The position numbers and the translations under genes are program-made. Positions 8,601 through 63,126 of a DNA stretch of 64,000 nucleotides are shown piece by piece. This DNA is from Medicago truncatula (Eukaryota > Streptophyta > Magnoliopsida > Fabales > Fabaceae). The stretch covers positions 13,278,001-13,342,000 of the forward strand of contig NC_053046.1 of NCBI RefSeq assembly GCF_003473485.1, in the 5' to 3' direction. The notes below the pieces were generated by a model, which did not search any database, had not been told where the DNA came from, and was given only the letters and a program-made list of their open reading frames with translations. Each line of letters starts with the position of its first letter. Position 1 is the stretch's first letter.

Positions 8601-9748
8601 TTATAAAAAAGATAGGGACCAAAAAAATGATTGAAAATTTTATAGGACTGAAAGTCGAAGGAAAATTTTAGAGGGACTAAAACAAAAATTTGATATCTTT
8701 TTAGAGGTGTGTTATTTGAACAATTCGTTTATGAAACAACTTTTGGGATAACCATAAATTTACAGAGAAAAGTAGATATTGACACTATTGACACAAAAAC
8801 TAAAACAATAGAGAGAAAATAAAAATATAATATAATATAAATATGATAAAAAAAAGTTGTCACAAAATAGTTACATAATACTCATCCAAATATCATTTCT
8901 CATCTTTTTATGGATGCGAAACAAACTTTTTTAGACAATTTCAAGTGAAGTTAATTGTCCTTCAAAAAAAAGTGTAGTTAAATTATTTTTATTCTTTCTG
9001 GGAGAAAAAAGTATACTATTGTAATGTACACGGATCGGCTCCAAGAAAAATAAACAAACAAACAAGATGTGGGGTATTTTATTTTTTTATTTTTTTTTAA
9101 ATAGATGTGGGGTATTTGTATATGTATCAAACGATGGTGTTCAAATTACTCCATAGACATATAAAAATATCATTTTTGACAAAAATAGCAAGGTTAGAGG
9201 TACTTTTGTCCCATGTTAATGGAGCAAATTCCAGTTTGCCATCCGTAAAAGAAATTTAGATGCCAATTTTGTAATTAAAAGATTATTTACTTTTAAACCT
9301 TAGTGAAATATGATTTTACAGAATTTGTATTGTAGCAAGGGGAGTAAATAAAAATTTACCCAAATGGTATGGATCAAAATTATCTTTAATTTTAAAATTG
9401 TATGCGATGAAGGTATAAAAGAAAAAAAATCTTTAAATTACAATGTTTAAATAAAATATATAGGGGATATATTAAAATTAACTCAAATACCATGAGGTAA
9501 AAGTATGAGTGTATCACCCATCACCCATGCTTGATGAAGGTAAAATTAAGGAAACCTTGTTGATAAACTTTTTATGGTTATAACAAGGAAAGGACTACTT
9601 GAAAACAGAAACAAATGGTGAATGAATACATGTGTCATGTGTATAGGTACCTTCTAGAGAATTTGAATGGAGACAGGACTCCAGATGAGTCCCTAGCTGC
9701 CCATCCGAAAGCCTTTTTAGGATGCTCCATCTCTGGTTGTAAAGCCAT
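5646..9748 (-). CDS. CAD/mannitol dehydrogenase-like, copy A
   Basis: Five exons on the minus strand: 9651-9748, 6774-6887, 6162-6675, 5925-6078 and 5646-5851, together 1086 nt and 361 aa, starting [10 protein letters not shown] zinc-dependent, NADP-dependent medium-chain dehydrogenase that should interconvert an alcohol and its aldehyde in the cytosol. Visible are the catalytic zinc ligands Cys50 ([10 protein letters not shown]), His72-Glu73 and about Cys166 (PLLCAG), structural-zinc Cys103/106/109/117, the Rossmann motif [10 protein letters not shown] and the STS loop that usually binds the NADP phosphate. A Trp equivalent to AtCAD5 Trp119 is absent, placing it in the ELI3/mannitol dehydrogenase/8-hydroxygeraniol dehydrogenase branch rather than among lignin CADs; the substrate cannot be read off. 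Intron 1 is about 2.8 kb because of a Mutator-type element. Copy B is its closest neighbour and shares its 5' flank. Confidence 0.93.
6925..8528. mobile_element. Non-autonomous Mutator-like element, long TIRs
   Basis: A 1604-bp element in intron 1 of copy A. The outer roughly 200 bp at each end are inverted repeats: left GGCTTAAATATGTCAAAGG..., right ...CACTTTTAAGCC, each with the same internal block including AACGCCATGGTGGCTAAC or its complement. Flanking 9-mers TTTATAGTA (6916-6924) and TTTATAATA (8529-8537) look like a 9-bp target duplication with one change, the Mutator signature. No transposase frame is visible inside. Confidence 0.8.
8595..8690. mobile_element. Fragment of the 41.1-kb MITE family
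   Basis: Contains GATTGAAAATTTTATAGG and GGAAAATTTTAGAGGGAC, matching the right arm of the palindromic element at 41099-41596. Only one arm is present, so this is a decayed piece within intron 1 of copy A. Confidence 0.6.
8943..8981. mobile_element. Poly(A) micro-insertion (candidate)
   Basis: AAGTGAAGTTAA and AAGTGTAGTTAA flank a short TTGTCCTTC plus oligo(A) insert. One mismatch between the repeats; the candidate is weaker than the others in this class. Confidence 0.45.
9065..9117. repeat. 15-bp direct repeat around a T-rich 23-mer
   Basis: AGATGTGGGGTATTT occurs at 9065-9079 and 9103-9117 with a T-rich spacer. It fits either a target duplication around a very short poly(T) insertion or a local slippage duplication. 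Confidence 0.55.
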
Positions 9749-11382
9749 TTCAGTTGCAGAGAAAGTGAAAGGATGTGTCTATCTATCATGTAATGGGAAG
9801 GGCCTAAATCCACAAGTTATTATAACAAGAGTGTATGTGGCAATGTGATAGCCATGTGTGTTACTTTTGATGTATGAGGGGATGACTTAGTCAATGGGTT
9901 GTGTGAAATGTCAAGACACAACCCAATCAATGTTAGTCTTATTGTCATATTAGAACAAAATTTATGTTTTTCAAATATTTTGGTGGGTCCATCATTGTCT
10001 CATGGGATCATTCAAGAACAACCATGTAGTTTTACTCTAATGCAAAAATATAATGTTTGTTTTTAATTTATTTTAAGTGGGTCCTCATATCAGTGTCCTC
10101 CAATGTTCTTTAGGGAGAATCCGTTCTCCAACATGGCATCCATGTCATTCCACTCCAATGAGATAGAACATAAAATCAAGTTCTTACGACCTCAAGAACA
10201 TATCATAGAACAACATTGGAGTTGCTTTGAATTCTTATTATTACTACCTTGTTTTTTTTAGGGGAATTACCTCATATTATTCACAAGGATAATTTAGCCA
10301 TAATATACGACATAAAACATTTAAATATATTTCCAGAAAGTAAAAATAAATTAATATAAATTTTTTAAATATGAAAGTGATATAAATAAAAATTATTTAA
10401 CAATTAATTAAATGTTACAATGATAACTTTATCATCTTTTGCTAGAAAAAAAAAAAAAAAAACTTTGTCATCTTGGTCAATTGTCTGTATATCAGCATAG
10501 TAGTAAGAGTTTGATCTCACAATATCGAAGGATTGAAATTTAAATAAAAATATCTGTAAAATAATTCTTAGTGTCACATTAATTTATAAATAATTTCCCT
10601 TTCTTCAATTTTAAAAAATATACAATTTGGTCAATCTTAAAACAGTAATGCTATTTGTAGCGACATTTTTTATAACGAAGTACTTACGAATTATGGTCTA
10701 TCCAATTAAATCAGAGCCTGTCCGGAAAACATGGAGGTGGTGGGGTATAGTGGACTGTACTGTAGCACTAAATTTTCTTCGTAGTTTTCTCGCGAGCTCT
10801 TTTGTCGCTGTGTTCAACATTTTCCATCTTAAAAACAAAAGCGCAAGAAACACTCCCACACGGTCCAAACAAAAAAAAACACTGCCAAAGCTCCAGCCTT
10901 AAAACCGACACCAGAGCCGAATAAACCTCGATTATCTATTTAGACGGTCACCAGGGTTTTCAAAAGCGATTTAGTTTGTTAACATACGTACATTAAATCT
11001 TGTAAAAAATATATTAACCACATGATTAAACTTAATTATGCTCACATATCATATGTCTTTCATGTTATAACGATCAAACAAATTTGGGTGATTAGATTTG
11101 AGTTAAGGGATAAGAAGTTGGAGGTTATGAATTCAACCAAAACAAAGAAGAAACAAAATTCAAACAAAACTTAAATACTCATAGGCTAAAACAAAGACTC
11201 AATAACAAACACAAATGTGTTCTTTCTCAACGAGAGAGATAAAAAAAGTTAAAAAAACGAAAAATGGAACAAGTAATACATGTCTTGCAAAGAAATAGAA
11301 ATACAAAAATGAAAACAAAGCCCTCCCAAAAATGAATACAATGTGAAAGAAATACTAATTTTTTATAAACCCATCTAGTTAT
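9749..11382. other. Intergenic between CAD copies B and A
   Basis: The first 150 bp upstream of copy A resemble the region upstream of copy B (shared ATCCACAAGTTAT and ATAACAAGAGT blocks), so the promoter was duplicated with the gene. About 9918-10230 has AACATTGGAGTTG-type ends suggestive of a decayed TIR element. At 10425-10474 AACTTTATCATCTT and AACTTTGTCATCTT flank TTGCTAG plus poly(A). The 10620-10920 stretch contains no recognisable gene. Confidence 0.5.
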
Positions 11383-16226: not shown

Positions 16227-17690
16227 GTTCCATAAGATTTGAAACAAACACGTTTTGCAAACTTAGACTAATCAGGCTAGTTACAATAGTTACCTTTGAG
16301 TACAATTGATCAACTTAGTTTTATTACAATTCAAAAAAACATATAGATACATGCATGAATTACAATTCAAAAAACCCTAAATAGTAACACACAAATAAAG
16401 ACTTCAAAGACAAAAGAGTTGATTCCAACAATATTGTTTTTTTACTAAATATGATATTATTAATGGGGTTGCAAGGGGTACACCAACATTGTGTCATTTG
16501 TCCACTTTACAAAGACTTAAACGTTCCAAACAAATATTTTGAAAAAATCCAACAATTCCCTATCAATTTTAAAATATATTTAAATTTAATATTCTAAAAA
16601 TGTCAAGGTTTCAGATAAATATATCTTATAATTTGAACCATTACGTAGGAAGTTTAGTTGTCACTCATCTCTAAATAGATTGGTAGATGGCTAATTCATT
16701 TCACATTAAACATCGTGGTTAAATCATTTCTCTTCAATTCAATCAATCATAGGCTCATTCCATTTGCTAATTATAAACTTAATAATATTTTCTTTGAAAT
16801 TATCTTTAAATTTTTGAATGAATGTAATAATTCACCTTCAATGTTAGAGATACATTGAATGCAGGGTAAAATATTCTCATATGAAGTCGTGAAAAGTTAG
16901 TTGAAATGATTTAGAATTTGATATAAGTTAGGAAACAAAGTTTGATTATGTATTTAAGTTAACTTATATAAGGATACCTCAAGGGTCACTATTTTAAATA
17001 AAAAACCGTTTCTTAGGTTCATTAAATAAATAATGCATATACCAATATTATAAATCAGGTGTATGTAAATTATTGTCTCATGTCACATGACATAAGAGTT
17101 CTTTGAAATAAGCTTTTGATTTGGTAGGTAAGAGAATTAAAAGGAAAGAGAATTTGAGATAAAAAAGGGGAAAATAAGTTTAAGGGTTGAGATTTCTCAA
17201 CATGAGGAAATTTAACTTGAGAGAATCTCCTCCCTCATATGCATAAGTTTTTTTTTTTTTTTGAGAGATCATATACATAAGTTATTAAATAAAGGAGTTT
17301 TTGTTGCATACAATAATGAGGGTAGGATACTAGGATGTAATTATTTTTATTTTAGAACATACACTAAGACATACAAAATCATGAATTGAATGCCCTATAA
17401 ATTTTAGAAAACGTACCTTAACAAGGAGAATCGCAAAAAATCATTTGTGGAAACATACGTTTTCAATCAAAATATTGATTAGTCATTAAAAAAATCAAAA
17501 TATTTGTTTATCTTTTTAAAAACTTACCTAGGTTGGTGGAATCCCAAACAATGTATTTTGGAATACTATTAATTTTTTTGATAAAAAATAGTATCAATTA
17601 AGCACACATTATTTCAAAACCAAATCAAATATTCTATTCTTTCTAATCTTTTAAATATTTACTATTTTAAGGATGTATTTGAAGGGAAAA
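16227..17690. other. Intergenic 5' of copy C
   Basis: No gene seen. About 17390-17660 matches 21080-21420 upstream of copy D (shared CAAGGAGAATCGCAA and ATACGTTTTCAATCAAA), so roughly 0.5 kb of 5' flank was duplicated with the gene. About 16985-17100 contains a decayed Stowaway-like stretch. Confidence 0.5.
17235..17283. mobile_element. Poly(A) micro-insertion
   Basis: TCATATGCATAAGTT and TCATATACATAAGTT flank only about 19 bp, which on the minus strand read ATCTCTC followed by A's. Confidence 0.65.
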
Positions 17691-24686: not shown

Positions 24687-24831
24687 CCCTCTGGTCACTA
24701 TTATAAGTAAAAGTCAACTTTTTAGATTCATTCAATAAATGATGTATTTGGTCAATAATATAGACTAAATACATAATTTATTGAATGAACCTAAAAAGTT
24801 GATTTTTGCTTATAACAGTGACAGGAGGGAG
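24687..24831. mobile_element. Stowaway MITE
   Basis: 145 bp with imperfect terminal inverted repeats (TATTATAAGTAAAAGTCAAC... against ...GTTGATTTTTGCTTATAAC) ending in GGAGGGAG, flanked by TA at 24685-24686 and 24832-24833. TA duplication and CTCCCTCC ends are the Tc1/mariner Stowaway signature. Confidence 0.8.
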
Positions 24832-27666: not shown

Positions 27667-28019
27667 CTTTTGTACAACTCCACTGTCTGTTGTTCGGATC
27701 ACCATCACAATTATTACGATTTTTGTTTGTTTATCCAATTTTTTTTAAGGATGTTTGTTTATCCAATATTGTCGATTGTTTTTTCTTCTTCTTGTATACA
27801 ATAAAGGTTTTTGATCTTGGACAGAGAGCGTCTGCGGTTGAAAATCATAGGGATTCAAATTCAGCACTATTCACATATATGTGAATGAATAATGTATTTT
27901 CTGTTATAGAATAATGTATGTGTTTTATGATGTGAATTTCAACTTGTTACAACTAGTGCAAGAACTTGTGTCTTGCACGAGTTTACCCCATTTTCTAAAT
28001 ATGTCAATAATATCTACCT
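27667..28019. other. 3' flank of copy E
   Basis: No gene seen; pyrimidine-rich and AT-rich sequence leading into the copia remnant. Confidence 0.5.
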
Positions 28020-38759: not shown

Positions 38760-40088
38760 CCTTGATTTTCGTTGTCGAAAATACTGGCTAACAAACGGTT
38801 AACTATCAGAAAATTGAAAATCAACTCGCTCCCAAAAAGATGAGAGTCGACTAGTCGAAGCCTCTTTTGGTGTAGATCACACACTTTTTTTAACCCCTTG
38901 GTTTGTTCTTTTCTTGGTGATGGATTCAACATAGTAAGTATTATTTTAATGGATTCTTAGCTTTTCAATAATATTTTTAAAAAGTAATATATTTTAGGTG
39001 ATTTTATGTGTGTTTCTTTTAGAAGAAAAAAACTTAGGACCATAAACGCCAAGAGCATAGACGTACCCATAATAAACAAAATAATGAGAAAAACGTAAGA
39101 ATATTGTCAACTTTTTGTGTGCATTAATCCAACGTTTTTCGATGGAAAGAGATACCGTTAATTTGAAGTTCAGTTAGGAATTAAGTAAAGTCTTATCAAG
39201 AACTGTCCATCTAAAAATTAAATTCAAATTCTTCTAAACAACATCATGGTACTCAATAACCACTTAGAACACCACCTACTCTATTATAAAGTACTTTCAT
39301 TCATTTAATTTTAAGTCCCTTACATGACTTTTAGGTCTTGCATGTGTTCTATTCTATCCCAAGCAAGCACCAACTTTTATATTTAACACATGAGTATAAT
39401 TTATTTTTTTCACGCAATGAGTATAATTTTTTGAAGTACAACAAATTTGGTTAAGAAAAACATCTGAATCAGGAGCCTCCCTTTTGTTCGTTTCTTTTGT
39501 CTAGAGGCTTTGGCTCGATACCTAATTTTTATTTAAAAACCCAATATCTGCTAGGATACATTAATGTCAATGTTGTCACCAAATACATCACTAACATGAA
39601 CGAGTGATTTAAGATTCTCCCAGTTTCTTAAAAAATGAATAATTATATTTACGACAGATCTACATACAAATAAAAATTGTTGGGAATCAACTTTAAAAAT
39701 ATTTTAAAATAAGCCTCAATCATCTCTTATCTGTATCTAACTCCTTCACTATGTAAAAAATACTTAAAATAAGATTCTCCTTGTTTCTTTATTTTTCTTT
39801 CTTGAGGAATGAATGTAGACAACATGACCTGCTCACGGCGCATATAAATAAGTTATTATTATATGACTTTTTTTTAATGATGATGATATCACTTTCATAT
39901 GCTTTTTATTTTTTAGTATTAATTTATCAGTTTTCTTTTTAATGATGACTTCTTCACTTGTATTTATTATTTTTTTTATTATATCTTTGCCACTAATCAA
40001 ACTTTTGTTTTTTTTTTTTGGGTTTGTAAATCAAGTGTTAGGAAGTTCACATACACAATTGTAAGACTTAATATCGAATTAAATAGAG
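38760..40088. other. Intergenic, no gene seen
   Basis: AT-rich sequence. Contains the 39390-39429 micro-insertion and several T-runs; no coding support. Confidence 0.45.
39390..39429. mobile_element. T-run micro-insertion
   Basis: ATGAGTATAATTT at 39390-39402 and 39417-39429 flanks a 14-bp ATTTTTTTCACGCA insert: perfect 13-bp target-type duplication. Confidence 0.55.
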
Positions 40089-40097
40089 GTGTGAAAC

Positions 40098-40708
40098 CTA
40101 TGAAGTCCAGATACGGGTACGAGTGCGGATACGATAGGATACGGGTACGTGGATATGCGAATTTTTTAACTTTAGGATACAATACAGCTAAGATACGTCA
40201 ACGAATTTTTTATACTAAGACTTATATATGTAAAATATTTGAAGAAAATAAACATTGAGTATCCTTCATCATCATATGTATGTAAATTTTTCTTATGAAC
40301 CATACCATATTTTAATTTGTTGGGATATCAAGAGAAATATTCAACACAAATTTTATCAAATGTTGATTAATTAAATCACCTCTCTCTCTCTCTCTCATTA
40401 GCTCCATTCATAAGAAGTATAATTTTAACTGGTTCATCGAGAAACAATTATACTGATGTATATCTAAAATTGAATCATATAAGTTTCTACTGAATTTCTA
40501 CAACATTGTCTCAATTTTTTCTCCTTCATCTTTTCTAGGATACGTATTTGTGACGTATCTTATAAATATTCTTGTGTATTAATGGAGTATCCAAAAAGTA
40601 TCAGATAAAATATTTTTTAAAAATTAAAATAATTAATTCCAATGTATCGGTATCCAATACATATCCGGTACAGGTACGGCTCCATTTTGGAGTATCCAAA
40701 GTTTCATA
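40098..40708. mobile_element. Mutator-type MITE
   Basis: 611 bp flanked by perfect GTGTGAAAC (40089-40097 and 40709-40717). Ends CTATGAAGTCCAGATACGG and the complement of TATGAAACTTTGGATACTCC. Internal GATACGGGTACG-type repeats. Confidence 0.82.
40381..40397. repeat. (TC)n microsatellite
   Basis: Short CT run inside the 40098-40708 MITE. Confidence 0.8.
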
Positions 40709-41098
40709 GTGTGAAACTTAACAATATCGATATTTGTCAGTTAAACTAAATTAAACACCGATAAGACTTTTTTGTTTTCACTTTTTTTGAAGTCGTCCTT
40801 AATTTTATATTTATATTTTCTGCACTATTCTCAGGATAATCGTTATAAATATAGTTCTCTAGCTTGGCACATGCATCTTAACTTCACATTATCGTCCTTT
40901 GAGTTCTAAGGCACCGGCCAAATACATTTTTTTTTTCTTTCTGCTTTTGACAAATTGAAATGGCAACACAACCTGAATTTGAGCATCCAAAGAAGGCCTT
41001 CGGTTGGGCAGCTAGAGATCCTTCTGGTGTTCTCTCCACTTTCAATTTCTCCAGAAGGTTCACTTCATTTACCTATTCATTTTATACATTTATTATTA

Positions 41099-41596
41099 GG
41101 GTTAAATATATTTTTGGTCCCTATAAATATACCAACTTTTCGTTTTAGTCCTTCTAAAATTTTCCTTCAAGTTTTAGTCCCTATAAAATTTTCAATCACT
41201 ACTTTTGGTCCCTATTTTTAAGTAAACTTTTGTATTTTTTAATGAAATTGTGCAGAAATGTATGGGATATTGTAAAAATCACTCCAAAAAAAAATTAGAA
41301 TTTTTTAACAAAACATGAATTAAATATGAATTTTTTACCGCCAAACATAAAATTCATATTTAATTCATGTTTTGGTAAAAAATTCTAAATTTTTTTTGGG
41401 AGAGATACTTATAATATTATGCATTTTTCTGCAAAATTTTATTTAAAAATATGAATTTTACATATGAGTTTACTTTAAACGGGGGACTAAAAATAAAGAT
41501 TGAAAATTTTATAGGAACTAAAACTTGAAGGAAAATTTTAGAGGGACTAAAACGAAAAGTTGTTATATTTGTAGGGACCAAAAACATATTTAACCC
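41099..41596. mobile_element. Palindromic Mutator-type MITE
   Basis: 498 bp in intron 1 of copy F. Ends GGGTTAAATATATTTTTGG and ...CATATTTAACCC; arms stay complementary inward (TTTTCCTTCAAGTTTTAGTC against GACTAAAACTTGAAGGAAAA at the level of a few changes) to a centre near 41345. Flanks TTATTATTA (41090-41098) and TTATTATTG (41597-41605) give a 9-bp duplication with one change. Confidence 0.85.
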
Positions 41597-42234
41597 TTAT
41601 TATTGTCAAATAATTTTATTTTTGTTTATACTTTTTTCTTTAATTTAAGCACTAGATATGCAAAGATTAGAGGTGGAAAATACACACTATCTGCAAGGAA
41701 TACAGTAATAACGCCATGCAAAAACCAATACAATAGTAGCAAACTAATAAACACAAATTGCAGCAGCTTTCAAAACAATACCCAAGTTGCATTTAATTTC
41801 AGCAACTTAAGATTATTAGTGACAAAAATTTCAAGTAACAAGTAAATAGGAACAAATTTTTTCTACGAAAGTGATAGATAAAAATGAAAAAGGGAGTATA
41901 TTCATGTGAATACCTAACCAAAACATTTTGAGGAATATAAGTTAAATTTTGACATAGAGCTTTTTTAAAGTTCATAATAAACATTTAACCGGTACTATTA
42001 CATTTTTGTTTGGATTTTATTATCAAAACCTCTAAAGTTCTTTAGCAAAAATTACAATTATCATTTATTTTTCGATGGATAATAAAGTTAAATCATTTAA
42101 TCTTTGTCAAGGCTAACAAATAACAATGTTTGAGATACAGTTTGAATCGAGCCTTCTTAGCCTAATCTAAAAAAGTCCCAACCCAACATCGATCGGTCTA
42201 ACGTTGGCCGGATAATCCATTTTAATACCTCCAC

Positions 42235-42277
42235 ATGTAACTCTTTTTTTTTTTTTTTTGAAAGATGTAACTCTTTT
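42235..42277. mobile_element. Poly(A) micro-insertion
   Basis: ATGTAACTCTTTT at 42235-42247 and 42265-42277 (13 bp, perfect) flanks a T-run plus GAAAG, i.e. CTTTC plus A's on the minus strand. In intron 1 of pseudogene F. Confidence 0.65.
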
Positions 42278-42524
42278 ATTCACCAAATTATTTAGATCTA
42301 AAGTGATTTCCTTTGTGATAAATTTTTCCTTGGGTCTCCCTTATAATCATTATGTTTATTACAAGACAACATAAGAATGAATTTGAACCCTATTAAATTT
42401 ACTTTAGGGAAACAGGTGAGAAAGATGTGGCATTCAAAGTGTTGTATTGCGGAATATGCCACACAGACCTCCACATGGCCAAGAACGGATGGGGCACATC
42501 CACCTATCCATTAGTTCCAGGTAA

Positions 42525-42786
42525 GCTTCCTACTTTATTAACATTTTGTTTAATGCATGCTAATTGTTTTAGCCATCTTATTATGAGTTTAGCTCAGTTA
42601 GTAAAGACAATGCATAATATATGCAAGGTTCAGGGTTCTAGAGTAAACTTCCTACTTTATTAACATTTTGTTTAATGTATGCTAATTGTTTTAGCCATGT
42701 CTTCGTAAGTTTAGCTCAGTTGATAAGAACAATGCATAATATATACAAGGTCCGGAGTTCAAACCCCGACCAAAAAAATTTATATA
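42525..42786 (+). mobile_element. Two tRNA-derived SINE copies in tandem duplication
   Basis: Two units (about 42525-42646 and 42647-42786) each carry CTTCCTACTTTATTAACATT, an A-box-like TTTAGCTCAGTT and an AATGCATAATATAT middle. The second has a good B box (GTTCAAACCCC) and a short A tail; in the first the B box is worn (GGTTCTAGAG). The shared non-SINE lead sequence shows the pair arose by local duplication, not two insertions. Confidence 0.7.
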
Positions 42787-42789
42787 TAG

Positions 42790-44118
42790 TTAACGGAATA
42801 AATGAGTCATACATACATACTCATGACAAACAATGGCTCAATATCTCAAATTAAAACTTGTGTATGTGTTCAAATTCAACGATCCCTCTTTATCTAATAT
42901 TTGAATGAAAACTTTATTTTAGTCAATGAGAAAATGAGAAAAAGTTCGAGTTCTAATAGATATTTGAGAAATCATAAAGTTTTGGTCCCCCATTTTATAA
43001 TTGACTAAACATAGAGAAATTTGATGTAACGTACCCCGCTATCGATCCTGTTGCTCCCCTCCTTTCTAATAGATAGATATTTGAGAAAATGAGAAAAAGT
43101 GTGAATTCAACGTTCATCTATCCCTTTTTATCTTCTTTTTTTACTCATTCATAAATTGGTTTCCCCATTTTTAAATCATCAAGTTTTGGTCCTCCATCAA
43201 ATTTTTGTACTTTAAAAAATGTTAAAACTAAAGTTTTTAATTGATTTTCTGCTAATTTCATGAATGTCGATCAATCCGCAATCATAAGGTCGTATGTCAC
43301 ATCATTTAAAATATTTTAAATCATTAGTTTTAAATAAAAAATTGTGATTGAGAGATCAAAATTAAATACTTATATAACTAGTAGACCGATTCGTGAATAA
43401 GTGAAAATTGATGGAAAAAAATTGTAATTAAACCAAAAAAAACTACAACTTAATCTAAACTACCATCACAAAATGGATAATTATATCACTAACACTAATT
43501 AAAAATTGACAATCTGTCACTTACAACAGAAAAAGGTTTTAATTAAATTTGTTTCCCAATAAATGAACTACTTTTTTTTGTCTTCTTTTGCATTCATAGG
43601 ACCACCTTACATGTAATATTTATTATGATTTTGGTAAGTACCAAGAGTGTACCAAATCATCATATAGTATTAAAATGAATGTTCACTCCTAATTAAGGTA
43701 AATTTTATGGTACATCCAACAATTTGAGTGTATTGGTACACCAAATTCTTAAATTAATAGTTAAATGAGTTATTTTTTGTAGGAAAAAATATTTTCCATC
43801 ACCTATAATTATAATAACTAAATCTTATCTACCAAAAATGTCAACACAATAAAATTCAATTTTTCTGAATTCATAATACTCATAATAGAGAATTTTTATT
43901 ATTTTTTACAATAAAATGTAGAAAAATTTAGTACGATTTTTCTAAAAAATGAAATGATGTTCTTTTTTATAAAATGATATTTTCTAAAATATATATGTCA
44001 ACAAACACCAATTTTCTTTCATAAAAAATGATAGTTAATTTATAAAAATTGTAAGCGAGAGTACCGGTACACCTTAATTTGCGGATGTACCGTAGAAGTT
44101 CCCATAAATTAAACATTA
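42790..44118. other. Remainder of pseudogene F intron 2
   Basis: AT-rich, no gene seen. ACATCC/GGATGT-like ends around 43680-44100 hint at an old element without clear termini. Confidence 0.35.
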
Positions 44119-44369
44119 CTCTTCCTCCGTCTTATATTAAGTGACATGATTATTGTTCAACACACGTTAATGCATTATTTTGATATTTAATATCTTTAAT
44201 TATTTATTAGTAAAAAGTTGATAATTTGAATATATTCATCGAGATAAATCCAACATATTATATACTACAATTTGTCTTTGTTGTATATTAGCGGAAAAAT
44301 ATGATTGAAATATGTTATAGGAATAATGCATATGATCAAACTAAACCACTTAATTTGAGACGGAATAAG
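44119..44369. mobile_element. Stowaway-type MITE
   Basis: 251 bp, ends CTCTTCCTCCGTCTTATATT and AATTTGAGACGGAATAAG, flanked by TA at 44117-44118 and 44370-44371. In intron 2 of pseudogene F. Confidence 0.65.
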
Positions 44370-44927
44370 TACTATCAAAGGATTACCGGTTGCCAAAACA
44401 AATTCATTTCCATTCTAACAATTGTTATAAGAAATACAGGCACGAAATTGTTGGTGTAGTGACTTTGGATGGTATTATTGACACAATTTCTGCTGATCAT
44501 TCCCTCTTACCCCTAATTGATTTACTAAAATCTCATGGAAAGCTTGTATTGGTTGGTGCCCCAGAGAAGCCTCTTGAGTTACCAGCATGGCCTTTACTAG
44601 TGGGTAAGCATTATGAAATTTATATTATTGTAGAACATGTGTACTTCGTATGCTTAGACATTAGATAATAAATAATAATAACATTAAATTAAACTTAAAT
44701 TAATGTTTTGATGTATTGCAGGGAGAAAAATGGTAGCTGGTAGTGGAATGGGAGGAATGAAGGAAACTCAAGAGATGATTGATTTTGCTGCTAAACACAA
44801 TGTACAACCTGATATTGAAGTCATACCTATGGATTATGTCAACACAGCAATGGAGCGTGTCCACAAATCAGATGTTAAATATCGATTTGTGATTGACATT
44901 AGAAACACTCTTAAAACAAGCCCTTAA

Positions 44928-45475
44928 ATTTCAATAAGTAATAAGTATAAGTAATTATCTACATTTGAGATCTTTCCAAATAAACATTTGCAAAGTTTTT
45001 ACTTGTAATATTTCTATTGTAATATGATTGCTATTGTTGGTTGAAATTATCTACAAGATCAGAAATCCATTGATTTTTGGTATATATTTTATTAAACATA
45101 TTTTAGATTTTGTTCTGCGTTATATTCAAGTGTTACCCATGATGAGACGTGGGCATTACAAATTAAAAGATCAAATAAAAATAAGGCTTGAAAAAGATTC
45201 ATTTCATACAATGTAGGGAAGTATTTAGGGAATCGTTCTTAGGGGAGAACCCTTTCATACGATATATTTGGTTGAAAAATATATATATTAAAAGCAAAAG
45301 AATTTTTTATTAAAAATAGCATGATTAACATTAAGCACAGGACATAGAAAATTGCATAACAACATTACAATAACGATGGAAATCTAAATTATCCTTGGCA
45401 AGTGATACACTTAAGCTCATGTTTTTGTTAAATTATTTGTTAACCCGTGAATCATGCTAATGTATCCTGCAAAGT
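44928..45475. other. Intergenic between F and G (tail to tail)
   Basis: Convergent 3' flanks of F (+) and G (-). AT-rich; no gene or clear repeat seen. Confidence 0.6.
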
Positions 45476-48000
45476 TCAAGAGCTTGGTTTCAGTGTGTTT
45501 CCAATATCAATCACAAATCGATATTTCACGTCTCCCTTAGCAAGACGCTGCATTGCTGTGTTGACATAATCAATCGGAACAACCTCGATATCCGGCTTTA
45601 CATTGTGTTCTGCCGCAAAATTAATCATTTCTTGAGTCTCCTTTAACCCTCCAACTTGACTTCCAGCTAATATTTTTCTCCCTATCAATAATATGAAATT
45701 AACACAACGTGAGCATAAAATTAACATGGTTCAAATATTTAATTAAATAGAAGTGCATAATTAGCATTTTCTCCTGAACTATTCTAAGGGAAAATATATA
45801 TGGAAATATTTTTCATATGCTTACCTTGAATTAACGTATATTCAGGAAGCTGCAAAGGCTGTACTATTACACCAAGCATTATAAGCTTTCCATGAGACTT
45901 CAAGAGACCAATCATTGGTAAGAGAGGATGAACAGCTGAAACTGTGTCAATAATACCATCCAAAGTACCAATTGCACCCTAAAAATTTATCAATAATGTG
46001 TTTATAAATTATAATTGTCGATTTCTGAAATAATGCATCTCAAAATCAAATGAATCATATATTGTATGGCACCTGAATCTGCTTTGGGTCACTACTTATC
46101 AGAAATGAATCAGCTCCTAAGTGTTCTATTGCTTCCTTTTCTTTGTTAGGCGATGTACTAATTACGGTAACATTAGCACCGAAAGCTTTGGCAAATTTCA
46201 CAGCCATATGGCCAAGTCCACCAAGACCAACAACACCTATATGTAAACCAGGCTTATCGAGTCCAAAAAATCGAAGAGGACTATATACGGTGACACCAGC
46301 ACAAAGGAGAGGACCAGCAAATTCAAGAGGTATGTTGTCAGGAATGCGAATCACAAAGTGCTCGTCTGCAACCATTGAGTCGGAGTAACCTCCATAAGTG
46401 ACGGTTCCATCACGATACTTGGCACCACATGTGACTACAAATTTGGGGCAGTAATTCTCAAGATTGTCATTACAATCTTGGCATGATCGACATGAATCAA
46501 TCAAGTAGCCAACACCTACTTTGTCTCCAACTTTAAACTTCTCCACTTTGCTTCCTACTTCTGTTACTATACCCGCAAGCTCATGCCTGTATTTATTACA
46601 CCAATTACAGAAAAATTATCTATTTTATGTTTTAGTTTTTTAAAATTGTCCTTTCATTTATATTTGTATATTTACTATCAAAATTACTTACACATCAATA
46701 GGAGACAAGCGGGCAACAAGCTGCACCGCTTATTGGGAAAAACCCAAGTCCCACATCAAATAGATAAGACTCTTGAGAAGAGTTTATAAAGAGGAGGCAA
46801 TCCTCACCTTACAAGCCGGTTTTGTAAGGATGAGTTAGGCCCCAAATTTCAACATGGTATCAGAGCTTTCGAATTCAAGGACTGCCTAAACCTATTCACG
46901 CACCAAGCCCAAAGAGTGCTGGGCGTAAGGGGGATGTATTGGGAAAAACCCAAGTCCCACATCGGATAGATAAGACTCAGTAAAAATAGTCAATTATTTT
47001 TACTTGTTAATTTGTGCAAAAATAGTTGATGAATCTCATAATTTAGAATGAGTATTAGTATAGTATATTTACAAACATGGGTAGTACTAATGATAACAAT
47101 AAAAGGAGTTCAAAACATACCCAGGAACAAGTGGATAGAAGGAAGTGCCCCATTCATTCTTAGCCATATGGAGATCAGAGTGACATATCCCACAATACAA
47201 CACCTTGAATGCTACATCTTTTTCACCAGTTTCCCTAAAATTTTGGTGTACCAAAGTTGAATTAATTTGTATCCAGAAACAAGATCTAAACATTTAAGGG
47301 TGTTCCCATTGAAGTTTGGTTTAATTATGAGACAAAAAATAATTCAATCTAAATACTATTAAAATACTTCTAGTTTGGTTCATTCTCGATGTCTCTTTAA
47401 AAGAATATGATAATGTGGGCTTAATTTAGATGTAATTTCGGTTATCTAAATTACAGTTTTAAAAAATTATATATTACAAAACTAACAGATTTTAATTACG
47501 GACATCGAGATGTTAGAAGGTCCTTTGATATGTGTCAAAAAGTTAATTAGTAGCGGTAGCTCACTAATTTTTAATGGTGCAGTTTAGTTTAGTATTAGAG
47601 TTATATGAACCGAAAACTAAACCGAACAGATCTATTCTTGTTTATTTTGGTCTAGACACATTCAAGAAATATTAGTTGAGTGATTTTTAGGGTTTTAATT
47701 TTTAGAACAACCCTAGTAAAGATAAAATATATTCATTCAATTAGCACATTCCATCCAATTCCTATTTTTAATCTTTTATCGGTGGAAAAAGAAAAGGCAA
47801 AAATATTAATTTCCTTGTAACTAGTAGAGGGGAATATGATGCAACAAATAATGTTAGAAATATGCATTAAATAAATGAAGAGGTGATCAAGAAATAAACC
47901 TTCTAGAGAAATTGAATGGGGAGAGAACACCAGAAGGATCTCTAGCTGCCCATCCAAAGGCCTTCTTAGGATGCTCTACTACTTTACCTTCTGTTGCCAT
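45476..48000 (-). CDS. CAD/mannitol dehydrogenase-like, copy G
   Basis: Minus-strand exons 47900-48000, 47121-47234, 46073-46586, 45825-45978 and 45476-45681; 362 aa starting [11 protein letters not shown], one codon longer in exon 1 than copies A-E. Zinc ligands, relay His, structural cysteines (SCRSCQDC...YC), [10 protein letters not shown] and [10 protein letters not shown] are present. Exon 4 is the most divergent in the cluster ([20 protein letters not shown] where others have LVMVGxxxKPLELPxFSLI), changing the wall beside the nucleotide and substrate cleft, so substrate or kinetics may differ. Intron 2 contains a TRIM element. The first member of the G-H-I minus-strand group. Confidence 0.93.
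46731..46980 (+). mobile_element. TRIM (miniature LTR element) fossil
   Basis: Non-coding miniature LTR element in intron 2 of copy G. An LTR of about 124 bp (46731-46854) starts TATTGGGAAAAACCCAAG, is followed directly by primer site TGGTATCAGAGC (46855), a short interior and a purine tract (AAGGGGGATG), then a partial second LTR at about 46937-46980. Incomplete at its 3' end. Confidence 0.78.
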
Positions 48001-48892
48001 TTCAAACTATGTTATGATAATTCAATGATATGCTCAAATTCAGGTTGTGTTATACGGTATTTATTTAGAAAAATGGATACAGCATTAAGTTATGGATATT
48101 ATTACTAACATCTACCAGTGCTAGTTATGGATGAGATATTTATAAGAGCTGTCAGGGTTGTTGTATTGGGACCATGAATTTGATCACATTGTCCTTGCTA
48201 TTGGGTCATGACTCATTGACTCCTAAGGCGATTAAGGCATCTGCCTCTGGCCCCATCATATAATACTATATAGGGTGATATGGATATACTATACTTTTGT
48301 CAAAAAGGACTTCTTCTTTATTTTCTTTTTTATTATTATTTATGAAAGAGATGCCTCTAAACCAAATTACAGATGAATACGACGATTAACTAATACATGT
48401 AGGTCGAGAATGAGCATAAATTGCAAGTCAGTTAGTCATCTGAATTTTTGGCTTGTAAATGTGATTAAAAGTAACTTGCCAAACACTCATCTTAAGGTGA
48501 TTGATAAGAGTGACAATAGATTAATGCAAATGCGACGCCGGACACCATCTATAAGAGGAATTCTGATTGTTGAATCAGAGAAATTGCACTACCATAACAT
48601 CAAAATTATTCCCATTAAAAATATTGTTGAAAATTGGCACAAAATTTGGTGATGAAGGTTCGCCAAAAATTTCACAACAAGATTGAGGAGAATCATGACA
48701 CAATTTTGCAATGGTCAGCTTCAGTACTATGTAAGAAACCTAACATCAAAATTATTCCCATTAAAAAATATTGTTGAAAATTGGCACAAAATTTGGTGAT
48801 GAAGGTTCGCCAAAAATTCAACTTCAGTACAATTTAAGAAACCTAAGGAGGGAACTTAGAGGTTAGAGGTTAAGTGTCTTAGGGTTAGATTT
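48001..48892. other. Intergenic 5' of copy G
   Basis: Promoter region of G, then a tandemly duplicated block (48597-48821). The short frame at 48410-48652 has no family features. Confidence 0.5.
48597..48821. repeat. Two-copy tandem repeat, about 145-bp period
   Basis: ATCAAAATTATTCCCATTAA, TTGAAAATTGGCACAAAATT and TGATGAAGGTTCGCC recur in order at about 48597 and 48742. Confidence 0.85.
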
Positions 48893-49318
48893 TGTTGGGT
48901 CACCAGGGGAGCCACGGGGACCGCCATTTCGAGGCTAGAACAACCGCACAAGCAAGAGAGACGCCACACTCTTACCCAAAACCTTAAGGTAATAGGTTTA
49001 TGGGTCCTCTTACTTATAAGGTGTTCAACCTTTACTAATTTATCCGATGTGGGACATATAACTCACACTTGCACACAACAGCACTCCCCTCAAGTGTGAG
49101 TCCATCTATTCAGCATGCTCCCCCTTCAAGCGGAAGCTCTTACTTGCTTGTATCGCTGTTGATGGTTTCTCCGCAAACGGACCGAGACTGCTTGCACCGC
49201 CGTTGCTGCTTTCTGCGCAAACGGACCGGTTGCCTCGGTCGTACCCTTCGACGAACGGGACTCTGATACCACTGTTGGGTCACTAGGGGAGTCATGGGAG
49301 ACCGCCACTTCGAGAGAA
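48893..49318 (-). mobile_element. TRIM element fossil, second family
   Basis: Miniature LTR element in minus orientation. One LTR spans 48893-49080 (TGTTGGGTCACC...CACACAACA), bordered inward by a purine tract on the minus strand (complement at 49081-49093); the primer-site complement CTCTGATACCA is at 49261-49271, and the partner LTR begins at 49273 and is incomplete. Non-coding interior. Confidence 0.8.
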
Positions 49319-49439
49319 TCAAAATACAAAGTAATAGTAAATATTCAGAGAATCAAAATTTGATGAAATTTTTTAGAGAAACGAAAATCAAAATTTAAAA
49401 TATTTATATCGACAAAAACTTAAGGAAACTACTAAGAGC

Positions 49440-50333
49440 CCGTTTGGTGCGCATGATATGATATAAACAAGATAGGATAAAAAAGCTGGATAAGGATATG
49501 ATATGATAGTGACATGATAAACATTATCCTATTATGTGTTTGGTGCACATATGATAAGAAAGATGATAGCATTATTTTATTTCATCATGTGTTTGTTATT
49601 GATATGATAAATAAATAAAAAATTAGATACACACATCCATTTCCATCGAATGACAAGTCTGTCCCCTTTGTCATTCGATCATACCAGATTCATCCCCAAT
49701 TCATGTGCAATTAATGGTCTCGTGTTGCCGGTGTCAAAATAGTTCATGATTCAACAGTCAAATCCCTAATTCATGTGCAGCAACCCATTTTTCTATACAC
49801 AACTTTAATTTTACACACATAATTAGATCATATTCAAATCCTTTAATTTCATCCGGTTGAAATTGATTGGTATCAAAAAAATTGAAATCAATTTTCTCAA
49901 TCAATTAGGAACAAGAAAAAAGAAACGAAAATTAACATGAAGAAACTTGATTGGGAAGAACAAGAAACTAGGGTGTAATTTATGCTATCAGGTTGGGAAG
50001 ATGTAGATTGGGAACAAAAAAAAACCAAGAAAATCGATTGGGAAGATATCATGTTTGTAATTCAGGGAACAAAAAAACAATAACAAAGAAACAATTTTCT
50101 CGTTGGAAGTTGGAAGATTGGGAAGGAAAAAAAAACATGAAGAAACATGGAAAAAGTGGGAGTCGAAGGTTTTACTGGGAATAGATGAGGAGTAAGAATA
50201 ACAAACTAGGAGTAGGTTAGGATTAGAAATAGGTTAAACTTATCTTTTTCTGTTGGTGCACCAAACGCGGATTGAGTCAGGATATAATAATTTAATCATA
50301 TCATGTATCCTTATCATGCGCACCAAACGGATC
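49440..50333. mobile_element. hAT-type element, non-coding
   Basis: 894 bp, ends CCGTTTGGTGCGCATGATA and TATCATGCGCACCAAACGG(ATC), 8-bp duplications CTAAGAGC at 49432-49439 and 50334-50341. Subterminal inverted GGTGCACC motifs (near 49550 and 50256). No transposase seen. Confidence 0.75.
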
Positions 50334-50337
50334 CTAA

Positions 50338-50691
50338 GAGCATCTACAATGGAGATCCTCACATTTGAGGTCTTAAACGGGTTCCACATGGACACATCAC
50401 TTTTTTATTATTTTTTAACAATAGTACCTAATAGGTACTCAACCACTCCAATAGAGATCATCTATCAAAAGGTCTAAATAGGTCCCACCAATAACTATTT
50501 ATTAATGAAAAGCAACCAAATCAATTCAAATAATGATTATTTTATTGAAAAGTGGTGTGGGGTCCACTTAACATTGGGGGTCTTAAGTTAGACCCTGAGT
50601 CTTAAGAGACTCCCAATTTTTTTCTCCACATTGGAGGTACATATTAGGTACCGGATCTTAAATGGTAAAGACCCTACCGATGTGGATGCTC
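50338..50691. mobile_element. PIF/Harbinger MITE
   Basis: 354 bp, ends GAGCATCTACAATGG and CCGATGTGGATGCTC, flanked by TAA (50335-50337 and 50692-50694). A relative at 53786-54134 shows the same ends. Confidence 0.78.
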
Positions 50692-51853
50692 TAAGTGACT
50701 TCACTTACCCATAGTATCTAGAAGCTGCAGTAATCACACGAAATCCTTTTGTTTGATGAAAGGTTTCCTGATCCTCTTCTCATCCAATTCAATGGGCCAA
50801 CTGCTGAGAATTTGGATATGGCCTTCTTGAGGGGTGAAGTTAAACGAAAAATGGTAAATTTAACATTTTTAATAATTTATTGGAGTGAAGGATTAAATGT
50901 AGGGGTACATGATATAATGTTCCTTCTTGTGCCGTACTTCTGGCCCAGTTGTAACTACATGTCTATCAACAATGAAAATTGCTCTTAGGCACCTTGGATT
51001 GCTCACAAGCACTTCAAACTTTCAAAAACACCTTGATCGAGAGTTATGAACCATCTATGAACGGAAGTTAGGAACCGTTTGGGACGTTGAAGCATTTGCA
51101 ACATGCCTTTGTAGCTTTGACACCAAGATTGCTTGTCAATGATTTATGGAACTAACAGGCAAGTATTCAAAGTTCAATAAGATTGTAGTATTTGATTCAA
51201 TCATTCAATTTAACAAATATAAAGTTGCTCATTGATGTGATGATCATTGAGATTAATGAAGGCTGACATGTGTGACTTGTGTGCATTATATGTTCTCTGC
51301 TTTCTGTTTAAACCAACTTGAACTCAAAGTCTCTCCCCCATCTCCCTTTTATGTTGTAAATTTGTGACTTGTGAGCATTATATTTAACAAATTAAACAAG
51401 GAATTTATGTTGTATTTTTTGTAAACACCTACTTATGTTTTTCACCACTAGTTTGTATGTAGGCAACGACCTTAGAGGCAATTGATTTGCAAATGCTTCA
51501 AAAGCTATAAAGACATATTGCAAATGCTTAGAAGTCCCGAACGAGTTCCCAACTCCCTTTCATGAGCGAACGTTTCCTAACTCTTGTTCACAACCGAGAC
51601 CGGTTTGTAAGTTCCGATGGGGGTATTTTCAGAAGTTTAATATGCTTGTGAGCAATCCAAAGTGGCTAAAGAGAAATTTTCAAAAACAACAAGTTCAAGA
51701 CACGGATTTTTATCAGAATACATAAAAATTTATTATTTCTACTCTTGCAAATTACATCACACAAATACAATAAAGAGGGAAATCTAAAACATCATTGGCA
51801 AAAGCGATACACTTAAAGCTGTAAATCATTCTCAGAGATATATCCTGCAATGT

Positions 51854-54353: not shown

Positions 54354-54394
54354 CATTTGATGACGTTTTTTTTGAGAGAACATTTGATGACGTT
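54354..54394. mobile_element. 13-bp poly(A) micro-insertion, empty site known
   Basis: CATTTGATGACGTT at 54354-54367 and 54381-54394 (14 bp, perfect) flanks 13 bp, read on the minus strand as TTCTCTC plus A's. Unit 2 has a single CATTTGATGACGTTATC at about 60597. Confidence 0.85.
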
Positions 54395-54528
54395 ATCTAT
54401 AGATTGTTGCACACAAATCAAATCATAACATATTATTTTTGTCAAAGCTGTGTTTACTTTTTCTTTTGTGATTCACATGCACTGTGATGAAATGAAATGA
54501 ACATGCACTTTGTTCCTTTATCAAATTC

Positions 54529-54570
54529 AAGTGTACGGATATGGTTCCCTCAAAAAAAGTGTACGGATAT
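54529..54570. mobile_element. 14-bp poly(A) micro-insertion, empty site known
   Basis: AAGTGTACGGATAT at 54529-54542 and 54557-54570 (14 bp, perfect) flanks GGTTCCCTC plus A's on the plus strand. Unit 2 has a single AAAGTATAAGGATATAGTAC near 60728. Confidence 0.85.
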
Positions 54571-54575
54571 AGTAG

Positions 54576-54619
54576 ATTAATAAACTTTTTTTTTTTTTTT
54601 GAGGGATACATTAATAAAC
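54576..54619. mobile_element. 24-bp poly(A) micro-insertion, empty site known
   Basis: ATTAATAAAC at 54576-54585 and 54610-54619 flanks a 15-T run plus GAGGGATAC; minus strand TATCCCTC plus A's. Unit 2 has one ACATTAATAAGCG near 60747. Confidence 0.82.
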
Positions 54620-56134: not shown

Positions 56135-56173
56135 AACTTATTTAGTGTCTTTTTTAAGGAACTTATTTAGTGT
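56135..56173. mobile_element. 11-bp T-run micro-insertion, older than the duplication
   Basis: AACTTATTTAGTGT at 56135-56148 and 56160-56173 flanks CTTTTTTAAGG. The same filled form is in unit 2 (about 61818-61856), so it predates the duplication. Confidence 0.65.
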
Positions 56174-56800
56174 TTTTATATTGGTCTTTGAAATATCTCA
56201 TATCAGGCCACAATTGATAGAGACGTTGTAGTATGAAGAGTAGATCAGATGGAGGATAGTTAGATCAAAAAATGGTAGAGAAAGACTTACAAAAATTAGA
56301 AGAAAAACAATTATGAAAGATTTATAAGTTATTGAGTTTGATAGAACATTACGACGCAATTTAATTCATGCAGTCGACCTCACTTAGTGGAACAATGCTT
56401 GGTTGTTATTGTTGTTGTTGTGTTATATTTGATACAAATTTTAGTAAGTGTACTAAACTATATTGAAGTAATAAAATTTATAAGATTCGTATCTACAAAG
56501 ACTGTTTCAACTTCTACTCGATAGTAACGTTATTATTAAGGGTGTTTGTATAATGGAGATTGCACTAAGGCAATTGGTTAGATTTGCAAGTTCTGAAGTG
56601 ATTCTGACCCAGTTGTAGTGTCCAACAACAATGAAAATTGCTCTTTTGAGACTTTGGATTACCCACAAGCACCTCAAACTTTTGAAAATACCTCCATGGA
56701 GAATTACGAACCATATGTGAACGGAAGTTAGGAACTGTTTGGGACTTTGATGCATTTGCAACATGCCTTTGTAGCTTTGACACTAAGATTGCTTGTCTAT

Positions 56801-60442: not shown

Positions 60443-60853
60443 TTCAAATCCTTGTTATTATTTCAATGATTTGTACAAAACTTAGCTTCTGTAGTATTTA
60501 TTGAGAAAATAGTATAAAGTTATGGAATATTTTAGTACTAAGATGTGGGAGGTACTTTGGAGATATTTATAATGGCTATTTGTATTGTGTTTACGCATTT
60601 GATGACGTTATCTATAGCGTGTTGCACATAATCAAATCATAACATGTTATTTTGGTCAAAGTTGTGTTTACTTTTTCTTTTGTCATGAAATGAAATTCAC
60701 ATGCACTTTGCTCCTTTATCAAATTCAAAGTATAAGGATATAGTACATTAATAAGCGTTGCTAACGAGTCATTTAATAAAGACACTCAGTAGAGATTTCT
60801 AATTAATATTATTCATAAAAAAAATGTATAATTTAATTTCTATTGGATTAAAT

Positions 60854-60974
60854 ACATAAATGTCTCTGTGCATGTGAGATTATTTCAGTTTAGTTGGTAA
60901 CGATAATGCATATAATATATGCAATGTTTGAGGTTCGAATCCCGGACACAAAAAAAAAAAACATAAATGTCTCT
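60854..60974 (+). mobile_element. tRNA-derived SINE, well preserved
   Basis: Perfect 14-bp target duplication ACATAAATGTCTCT (60854-60867 and 60961-60974). The body (60868-60960) has an A-box-like TTTAGTTGGTAACG and a B box GGTTCGAATCC (60932-60942), then CCCGGACAC and about 11 A's. Unit 1 has one ACATAAATTTTTCTAAAA near 54730. Confidence 0.92.
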
Positions 60975-61343: not shown

Positions 61344-62102
61344 AAAAATTTAATATTTAATGTTAAGTTATTAAATTACAGTTGTTAACATTTTTTATAA
61401 ACATACTGTTCCAATCCTTTCAAAAAAAAAAAAAAAAAAGACATATTCCAAGTTATAAACATTTTCATGATTGCTTCTTTTTTATTTGATAATTTATTTC
61501 CTGATTCAGTCCAGCCTATAACATCTTTATCAACTTTTAATTTAATACATGTGATTTAAAATAATGCAATAGCGTACGCATGCATGTACAATAAAAAATT
61601 GGCTTTAGCATCGACATAGTACATAATCATGGCCGACATTCTGAGACGCATTCATAGAAATTTTTTAGCGTCCGTTATCTGTCATTTGATGATCTGGCCA
61701 GCACTAAAAAACGCTCCAACCTATGAAAAATCGATCGACACTAACATTTATCCCAGACCGGGCCACACCAATGGGTACCCCATGAACTTATGAGCTAAAT
61801 TGAATATATAGTACTCTTTTAACTTATTTAGTGTCTTTTTTAAGGAACTTATTTAGTGTTTTTATATTGGTCTTTTAAATATCCCATTTCAGGTATAGTA
61901 CTCTTTTAACTTATTTAGTGTTTTCATATCTGGCCCCAACTGGTGGAGATGATGTAGTATGAAAAGTAGATCAGGTGCAGGAGAGTTAGATAAAAAAATG
62001 TAGAGGAAAACTTATAAAAATTATTAGAGAAACAATATGAAAGATTTATAGGTTAATAAGATTTATAGGTTAATTTGATTCATGTGGCCAACCTCATTTA
62101 AT

Positions 62103-62145
62103 GGGATAATGCTTTGTTTTTTTGACAAGGGGATAATGCTTTGTT
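62103..62145. mobile_element. 11-bp poly(A) micro-insertion, empty site known
   Basis: GGGATAATGCTTTGTT at 62103-62118 and 62130-62145 (16 bp, perfect) flanks TTTTTGACAAG; minus strand CTTGTC plus A's. Unit 1 has one GGAACAATGCTTGGTTG near 56390. Confidence 0.85.
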
Positions 62146-62166: not shown

Positions 62167-63126
62167 TGGTCCCTTAATTAATTAATATTATGTTTAAGTA
62201 CCTTAACATTTTAGTCAATTTGGTCTAATTCCATTAAATTTTAACTTCAATATCGAATATGGACAATCCATAAAAGACCTCATTAATTTGTTAAGTTAAT
62301 TGTTTGATCTTTTTTTTTTTTTGAAAATTCAATCATTAGATCATACATGTCTAGGAGTTTTTGGTTAGGGGTTTTTTTTTTTTTTTTTGACAAATGCTAG
62401 GGGTTTTGTTTTTTTTTTTTTTGGTTTTTCCCGGTCTTGTCGTGTGGTTTGTTTATGTTTCGGTCGGAGTTTTTGTTTCCGAGTGTACTAATTCTTATTC
62501 AAGAGGATTTCTTGTTCCATATGTGCTTTTGGAAAAATGGATGGATGTTAATTGTTGCTAGTTTGGATTTAAGGATATTGTATTTTTGTTGATGTTATTT
62601 GGTATATAAAGGTTGTGAAGGATCAACTCGTGTTGTCGAATCAATCTTTGGTATAATCTTTTTTTCTGGGGTTTGCTTGGATGATTTTTATGAATATGAT
62701 GATGAAGATGGAGAATAGAATGAGGAAAGAAGATGAAGAAAGGTGAAGAAAAATTAGATGTTAGTAGTGTACTATTAGATCTAGTTAACTAACGAAGTCT
62801 TTGGTGGACCACTTACAATGTGTGTGTATCTTAGACATTAGAGTTAAAAGTTAATAAAATGAGACCAACTTGACTAATAGATTTAATGTTAAAGGAGAAC
62901 ATAACATTGATTAAATAAGGGACGAATATGAAAGCATTAAATAAGTGAAGGGAACATATATCAAATTTAGCCATTTTTATATTTGCTGGTTTGATAGGTG
63001 ATGCATTCCTTGATAAATTGTTTCATGCACAAGAAAACGCGACAATGAGGCGAGCCGAAGTCACCCCCCTGAGGGGAACCATGTAATTCTGAAGCATAAC
63101 ATGTTTCAAACTTGTCAATTGTGGAA
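62167..63126. other. Intergenic, possible retroposon 3' sequence
   Basis: T-runs at about 62310, 62368 and 62410 and a TTTTTCCCGGTCTTGTCGTG to AAATGG tract reminiscent of LINE 3' untranslated sequence. No domain or tail proves it; no gene seen. Confidence 0.35.

Follow-up and report, generated by a model that had tools for sequence, protein, structure and literature searches.

The window considered here is the whole 64,000-nucleotide stretch G000:C5:13278001-13342000 of Medicago truncatula, in a genome of 429,922,655 bases and 42 contigs. It includes diverged repeated units in both orientations (about 6.1, 11.9, 46, 52.4 and 59.3 kb, direct; 18-27 kb, inverted) and a set of very short inserts, each composed of a tip of a few nucleotides followed by an A-run and enclosed by a direct repeat (Table 1). 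A preliminary description had placed three of these within 270 bp, with flanking repeats of 14, 14 and 10 bp. All three are present; the 10-bp repeat of the third can be extended to 13 bp with one mismatch, and its tip is therefore TCCCTC-A15. Similar structures had been listed at 17235, 42235 and 62103, and their duplications bear this out. Three further sites had been listed less surely: 39390 does include a perfect repeat but around an atypical tip, 10425 is weaker, and the repeat at 8943 matches at 11 of 12 bp, which lies under the scan threshold and was missed by two duplication scans.

Table 1. Ultrashort inserts, candidate inserts and the paralogous unit in the window (window positions)
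Positions	Strand	Feature	Duplication	Tip and A-run	Empty paralogue	Remarks
8943-8982	+	candidate insert (possible, weak)	AAGTGAAGTTAA/AAGTGTAGTTAA	ending CCTTC-A8		
10425-10474	+	duplication around tip and A-run	14 bp, 1 mismatch	TTGCTAG-A17		score 11, weaker; tip unlike donor clade
17235-17283	-	ultrashort insert	15 bp, 1 mismatch	TCTCTC-A15		
27724-27767	-	ultrashort insert	16 bp	TCCTT-A8		absent from preliminary description
39390-39429	-	duplication around tip and A-run	13 bp, perfect	TGCGTG-A7		atypical tip, unlike donor clade
42235-42277	-	ultrashort insert	13 bp	CTTTC-A16		
54354-54394	-	ultrashort insert	14 bp, AACGTCATCAAATG (54354-54367, 54381-54394)	TTCTCTC-A8	60582-60686	
54529-54570	+	ultrashort insert	14 bp, AAGTGTACGGATAT	GGTTCCCTC-A7	60655-60754	
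54573-54619	-	ultrashort insert	13 bp, 1 mismatch (10 bp perfect), TAGATTAATAAAC/TACATTAATAAAC	TCCCTC-A15	60685-60825	
56135-56177	-	ultrashort insert	present	CCTT-A6		absent from preliminary description
60582-60825	+	paralogous unit				single-copy targets, without insert, for 54354, 54529 and 54573
61821-61863	-	insert, paralogous copy of that at 56135		CCTT-A6		
62103-62145	-	ultrashort insert	16 bp	CTTGTC-A7	56288-56429 (diverged)	
62366-62407	-	candidate insert (probable)	10 bp	GCATTTGTC + A-run		absent from preliminary description

Twelve window sites were compared with paralogous sequence. An empty paralogue lies inside the window for four of them (54354, 54529, 54573 and 62103) and, as had been claimed, the paralogous unit carries one copy each of the first three targets and no insert. 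Five of the twelve gave no match, 27724 gave only a match which does not span the site, and 56135 and 61821 each align to the other's filled copy. Since the CCTT-A6 insert is common to both of the latter units, the two copies probably represent a single event, older than the unit duplication. The diverged array provides a resource for further empty-site comparisons.

The frequency of such structures was assessed in a set composed of the window and the fetched loci, the central match being omitted at loci fetched for their tip. An event was defined as a duplication of net score at least 12 around a tip of 1-10 nt and an A-run of at least six. With overlapping loci (L106, L127 and L129) dropped, 322,120 bases contain 38 events, including nine from the window. 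When the downstream flanks were permuted 40 times among the 1337 A-runs of at least six in the set, the mean was 0.125 events and the highest count was 1. Including the overlapping loci, the count is 39 events in 331,168 bases (one of them a tip-selected site met again from L129), compared to 0.15 with permuted flanks and four in reversed sequence. The excess over control sequence which had been predicted is therefore found with both types of control. Target duplications in the 39 events, selected for a score of at least 12, are 12-25 bp long. That poly(A) adjoins the duplication is a requirement of the scan, and the arrangement is commoner than with permuted flanks or in reversed sequence. 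These inserts do not have the structure of a SINE: the tip is at most 10 nt long and there is no body.

At a stricter score of at least 13, with the same overlapping loci dropped, there are 29 ultrashort events (tips of 1-10 nt). Arranged by length, two events have tips of 1-3 nt, 16 of 4-6 nt (0.17 permuted), nine of 7-9 nt, five of 10-12 nt, three of 13-19 nt and four of 20-39 nt, followed by seven inserts of 40-79 nt, eight of 80-159 nt, five of 160-319 nt, three of 320-639 nt and four of 640-1399 nt; permuted means lie between 0 and 0.33 in the bins below 160 nt and are 1.0, 0.67 and 1.67 in the three larger ones. The density per nucleotide therefore drops steeply past about 10 nt, leaving a tail of longer inserts with duplications (15 of 40-159 nt against 0.5 permuted, 12 of 160-1399 nt against 3.3) which includes some SINE-like or tandem repeats. 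Scaled up, the range from 29 events (score at least 13) to 38 in 322 kb corresponds to about 39,000 to 51,000 per genome; because the scanned sequence is a non-random sample (LINE surroundings, tip-bearing sites and one reader-chosen window), only "tens of thousands" is claimed. On this scaling the plant genome holds tens of thousands of ultrashort inserts, and the earlier suggestion that such events could be common was too modest.

Genome-wide searches for individual tips gave a similar picture. TTYCCTC-A9 occurs at 767 places, a number slightly raised by copies carried within a dispersed repeat, against 40 for the reversed pattern, TTYTCTC-A9 at 818 against 141, and TTTTGTC-A9 at 1749 against 75. 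The first 30 TTYCCTC-A9 loci, which all lie on C1, were examined for duplications: 23 score at least 9, with tips 3-10 nt long, whereas permutation gave 1.7 on average and at most 5. The tip is exactly 6 nt in 12 of the 23; of the other loci, L057 is a long L1 copy and six of the 30 have no duplication call. Of eight TTTTGTC loci, two of the eight overlapping others, three gave a clear duplication (scores 17-19), with a permuted mean of 1.0 and maximum of 3; this sample is weak taken alone, since it is small and three are also reached by permutation. Together, the two TTYYCTC-A9 patterns account for 1585 places (767 + 818; reversed, 181). The L1 end of the donor clade described below is found at 27 of these exactly and at 118 with at most one mismatch, some of the mismatches lying in the tip, and therefore roughly 2-7% carry the end of the element. 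The other places, less a background of about one tenth, are, roughly, tips without that L1 end.

A separate, longer donor ending in TTCCCTC was considered and rejected: ten places with TCATTTTTG-TTCCCTC-A proved to be copies of a single ultrashort insert lodged in a different repeat family. This dispersed family (L112-L121, loci of 831 bp) carries a single TTCCCTC-A stump whose own 9-bp duplication is retained in most copies, indicating that another element multiplied one stump. An empty version of the repeat, without the insert, is present at C2:36771938 (one mismatch).

The preliminary description proposed comparison of the tips with the 3' ends of resident LINEs and named no donor. LINE loci were collected by their zf-RVT domain: of 6220 first-look candidates, 150 were scored and 30 were cut out. 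The 3' tips of these loci form several groups, one of which ends in the tips of the stumps, and the best match is to a single L1 clade with a 3'UTR of 11-14 nt. L081 (TTCCTCTC) and 20 relatives retrieved by its 3' end read ...TAATGAAATGATATAATTTACTTTCTCTC-A(n), with the variants TTTCCCTC, TTGCTCTC, TTTTCTC and CTCT. Translated in frame, TAATGAAATGNTNTAA supplies the last codons of ORF2 (...NEML/NEMI-stop), and the poly(A) begins 11-14 nt after the stop. Sixteen of the 20 first L1 loci were used for reading the 3'UTR, L062-L064 and L070 being excluded as having no clear 3' end; read in frame, it is 13 nt in L065, L067 and L068, which are near-identical copies, and in L081. In a second set (13 of the 20 loci L130-L149), it is 11-14 nt in seven of 13 and 18 nt in two, four being unusable (the frames of L134, L136 and L145 are broken and the start of the A-run is misplaced in L141). 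The pattern TAATGAAATGNTNTAA-N13-A6, which itself fixes the spacing of 13 bases in its matches, occurs at 632 places with at most one mismatch, against four for the reversed pattern.

Among 100 matches listed of these 632, the tips include TTTCTCTC, TTTCCCTC, CTTTC, TTTCCTT, CTCTTC, TTTCTTTC, CCCT and CTCTC, and TTTTGTC ends about ten of 100 L1-end places listed in a further pattern search. Since they are present at the ends of this clade, the tips CCTT, TCCTT, CTTTC, CCTTC, TCTCTC, TCCCTC and TTTGTC share a common kind of source. In the stricter sample, 18 of 29 tips fit the clade by eye as suffixes of the element 3' end, while 11 do not (for example GTACC, TGCGTG, GTCAG and TAAT), implying that other donors or false hits exist. 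The earlier proposal that the inserts represent the 3' tip of a donor is supported, with this clade as the source, for the commonest tips; those at 10425 and 39390, and about 11 of the 29, do not resemble this donor. An RNase H-like domain (PF13456) is present in all four proteins examined just upstream of the 3' end of the clade. A tree was built from 23 rows, leaving out L074 (early stop) and 22 of L002-L031 (frame of less than 200 aa after the domain); in it, the seven rows with 3'UTRs of 13-20 nt (five distinct sequences) fall on one side of a branch supported at 100/100. The likely donor is thus this L1 LINE clade, in which 11-14 nt lie between the NEML/NEMI-stop end of ORF2 and the poly(A).

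Another L1 group of the same genome behaves differently. Its tip, CTTTATC-A9, shows no genome-wide excess (89 places against 97 reversed). In three L1s with this tip the 3'UTR is 53, 106 and 121 nt (L017, L022 and L026, respectively), and in eight other L1s it is 74-233 nt. Ten CTTTATC loci were read: an L1 body is visible by eye in seven (L105-L111), a short insert flanked by a 7-bp duplication is possible at L103, and the only one of the ten to score for a duplication is L102, with a 14-nt tip. Twenty-five of the 89 places are regularly spaced, mostly 1.7 kb apart, at G000:C2:23568747-23620723, which suggests a tandem array containing the motif.

The target sites have the Y|AA character of an L1-endonuclease site, in the orientation of the element: among 29 events, position +1 is A in 27, a figure inflated by the A-run, position +2 is A in 23, and position -1, which by construction is never A, is a pyrimidine in 25. 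They resemble the target sites of LINE-driven Sadhu insertions, as far as the available portion of PMC2848041 describes these. Together with the duplications, the empty sites and the identity of the tips, the target sites point to target-primed reverse transcription (TPRT). The structure of the inserts, their excess over controls, the empty paralogous sites, the identity of the tips, the separation of the donor clade from the other L1s sampled and the null result with another tip were all observed, and most inserts very probably arose by TPRT of the RNA tail of this L1 clade, limited to its extreme 3' end; this judgement concerns the TPRT of the tail and leaves aside the cause of the stop. The enzyme would putatively be that of the clade itself, and any cause of the early end is equally putative. 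In such a scheme, the L1 endonuclease would nick the target at Y|AA, and the nick would prime synthesis on the poly(A) of the RNA. The copy would take in the A's and some 3-10 nt (most often about 6) of the 11-14-nt 3'UTR and would end within the 3'UTR, short of the ORF2 stop codon. The stub would then be joined at a second nick, which would leave about 12-25 bp of the target duplicated. The preliminary description had already suggested that target-primed retroposition stopped almost at once, leaving only the donor's 3' tip, a proposal supported by tip lengths which peak at 4-7 nt.

Given TPRT, we lean towards a reverse transcriptase which stops early on a long RNA. The favoured cause, a conjecture, would be a failure to pass from initiation to elongation while the RNA end is still held, conceivably either by ORF2 protein bound at the conserved end, TAATGAAATGNTNTAA, or by a ribosome in the act of terminating. 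More tentatively, TPRT of this clade might include an abortive-initiation phase, in which the last dozen nucleotides of the RNA would be held by the clade's ORF2 protein, or by a ribosome still on the stop codon, which lies 13 nt before the poly(A), synthesis would usually fail after about 6 nt and the stubs would be integrated. If so, the tens of thousands of stubs would be a record of failed jumps. A stall at a 3' hairpin was also considered. The last 60 nt of 12 L1 3' ends were folded: one family has a small stem of -3.9 kcal/mol and the others differ. This candidate was dropped because the stem is weak and not conserved, and because the conserved stretch is explained by the ORF2 codons and stop.

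The template might alternatively be short already. L1 RNA 3' fragments composed of a few nucleotides and poly(A), cleaved near the stop codon, would be copied whole by TPRT, and the inserts would then be full copies of decay fragments with no aborted synthesis. This would account for tips which fall short of the stop codon and for the narrow peak of tip lengths at about 6 nt (12 of 23), and some 5' junctions have no obvious microhomology, for example at 54354 and 17235; the evidence from junctions is, however, ambiguous, because a search pattern containing TT favours loci with T-microhomology. Tip length nevertheless spans 3-10 nt, and we consider a short template unlikely, although clearly less so than the explanations which follow. 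Some tips (GTACC, CTGTAACC and GTCAG) are foreign to the donor clade and, in the available text of PMC3747384, M. truncatula has three listed poly(A) SINE families; L1 enzymes could thus have copied trans-mobilised RNAs, SINE or gene transcripts with such ends by chance. Since the commonest tips are the 3' ends of the L1 clade itself, and the sole dispersed repeat met which ends in TTCCCTC is one ultrashort insert inside another repeat, this is improbable as a general origin.

A further possibility is that L1 insertions are 5' truncated at random, as usual, and that selection or deletion afterwards purged the longer copies. This would draw on a normal property of LINEs and on the greater harm of long insertions, and the sample does hold longer inserts with duplications. 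Purging, however, would be blind to the difference between a 6-nt and a 30-nt tip, yet the bins of 4-6, 7-9, 10-12, 13-19 and 20-39 nt contain 16, 9, 5, 3 and 4 events, and it is at odds with the lack of a tip excess for another L1 group of the same genome; we judge it very improbable. It is scarcely credible that replication slippage, or end-joining repair, left a short duplication and an A-run by chance. AT-rich DNA is indeed rich in A-runs (1337 of at least six in the scanned set), but slippage would not introduce one and the same foreign 6-7-mer hundreds to thousands of times across the genome and predicts neither the match to the tail of one L1 clade nor the choice of Y|AA sites, and there is a clear excess of tips over reversed controls. 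Early termination of TPRT on the tail of this clade remains our preferred reading.

TPRT and 5' truncation of LINEs are well known. Like the stumps, 5'-truncated L1 insertions of mammals and plants have a poly(A) end and duplications of similar length and lack the 5' part. Unlike ordinary 5'-truncated L1s, the stumps are truncated within a few nucleotides of the poly(A), most often at about 6 nt, and far outnumber the long copies of their clade. Human poly(A)-only or orphan-tail insertions consist of an A-run and a target duplication with almost no element sequence; these are known as rare single events and not as a dominant product of one L1 clade. The available part of a study of 5'-truncated L1s (PMC2912911) describes no such ultrashort class. 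Partial Sadhu retroposons of Arabidopsis, in the portion of PMC2848041 available, are LINE-driven, 5' truncated and terminated by poly(A) like the stumps, have duplications of 7-16 bp and empty sites in other strains, and are termed "consistent with abortive retrotransposition". According to the same portion, they differ in being recognisable partial elements, few in number, and do not form a group of stumps 4-9 nt long. Plant L1 lineages with stringent 3'-end recognition, as presented in the available text of PMC3747384, share with the donor clade a conserved 3' end before the poly(A). In the maize and sorghum L1s of that text this is a hairpin, while in the donor clade it comprises the last ORF2 codons, the stop and a tail of 11-14 nt, and a hairpin is unsupported. 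No report of 4-9-nt truncations dominating the output of an L1 clade was found in the literature searched, which was covered partly with over-strict terms and included few subscription journals.

If most integrations of this clade end within ten nucleotides, recognisable LINEs badly underestimate how often the machinery cuts the plant genome, and the ultrashort inserts fall below the size reach of normal repeat annotation. The stumps provide a natural record of the positions at which reverse transcription stopped, and early termination could be tested across L1 clades with 3'UTRs of 13 nt and of 50-230 nt within one genome. They could also act as phylogenetic markers and seed new A-run microsatellites.

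Two other features of the window may be mentioned. An insert of 82 nt and A12 at 60850-60974, tRNA-like or SINE-like, has GGTTCGAATCCCGGACAC ahead of its A-run and flanks AAATACATAAATGTCTCT/AAAAACATAAATGTCTCT; the alignment of the paralogous units breaks at this point, so that the other unit is probably without it. A match to the MIR2593 microRNA precursor lies at 24701-24815 on both strands, with 104.5 bits on the plus strand.
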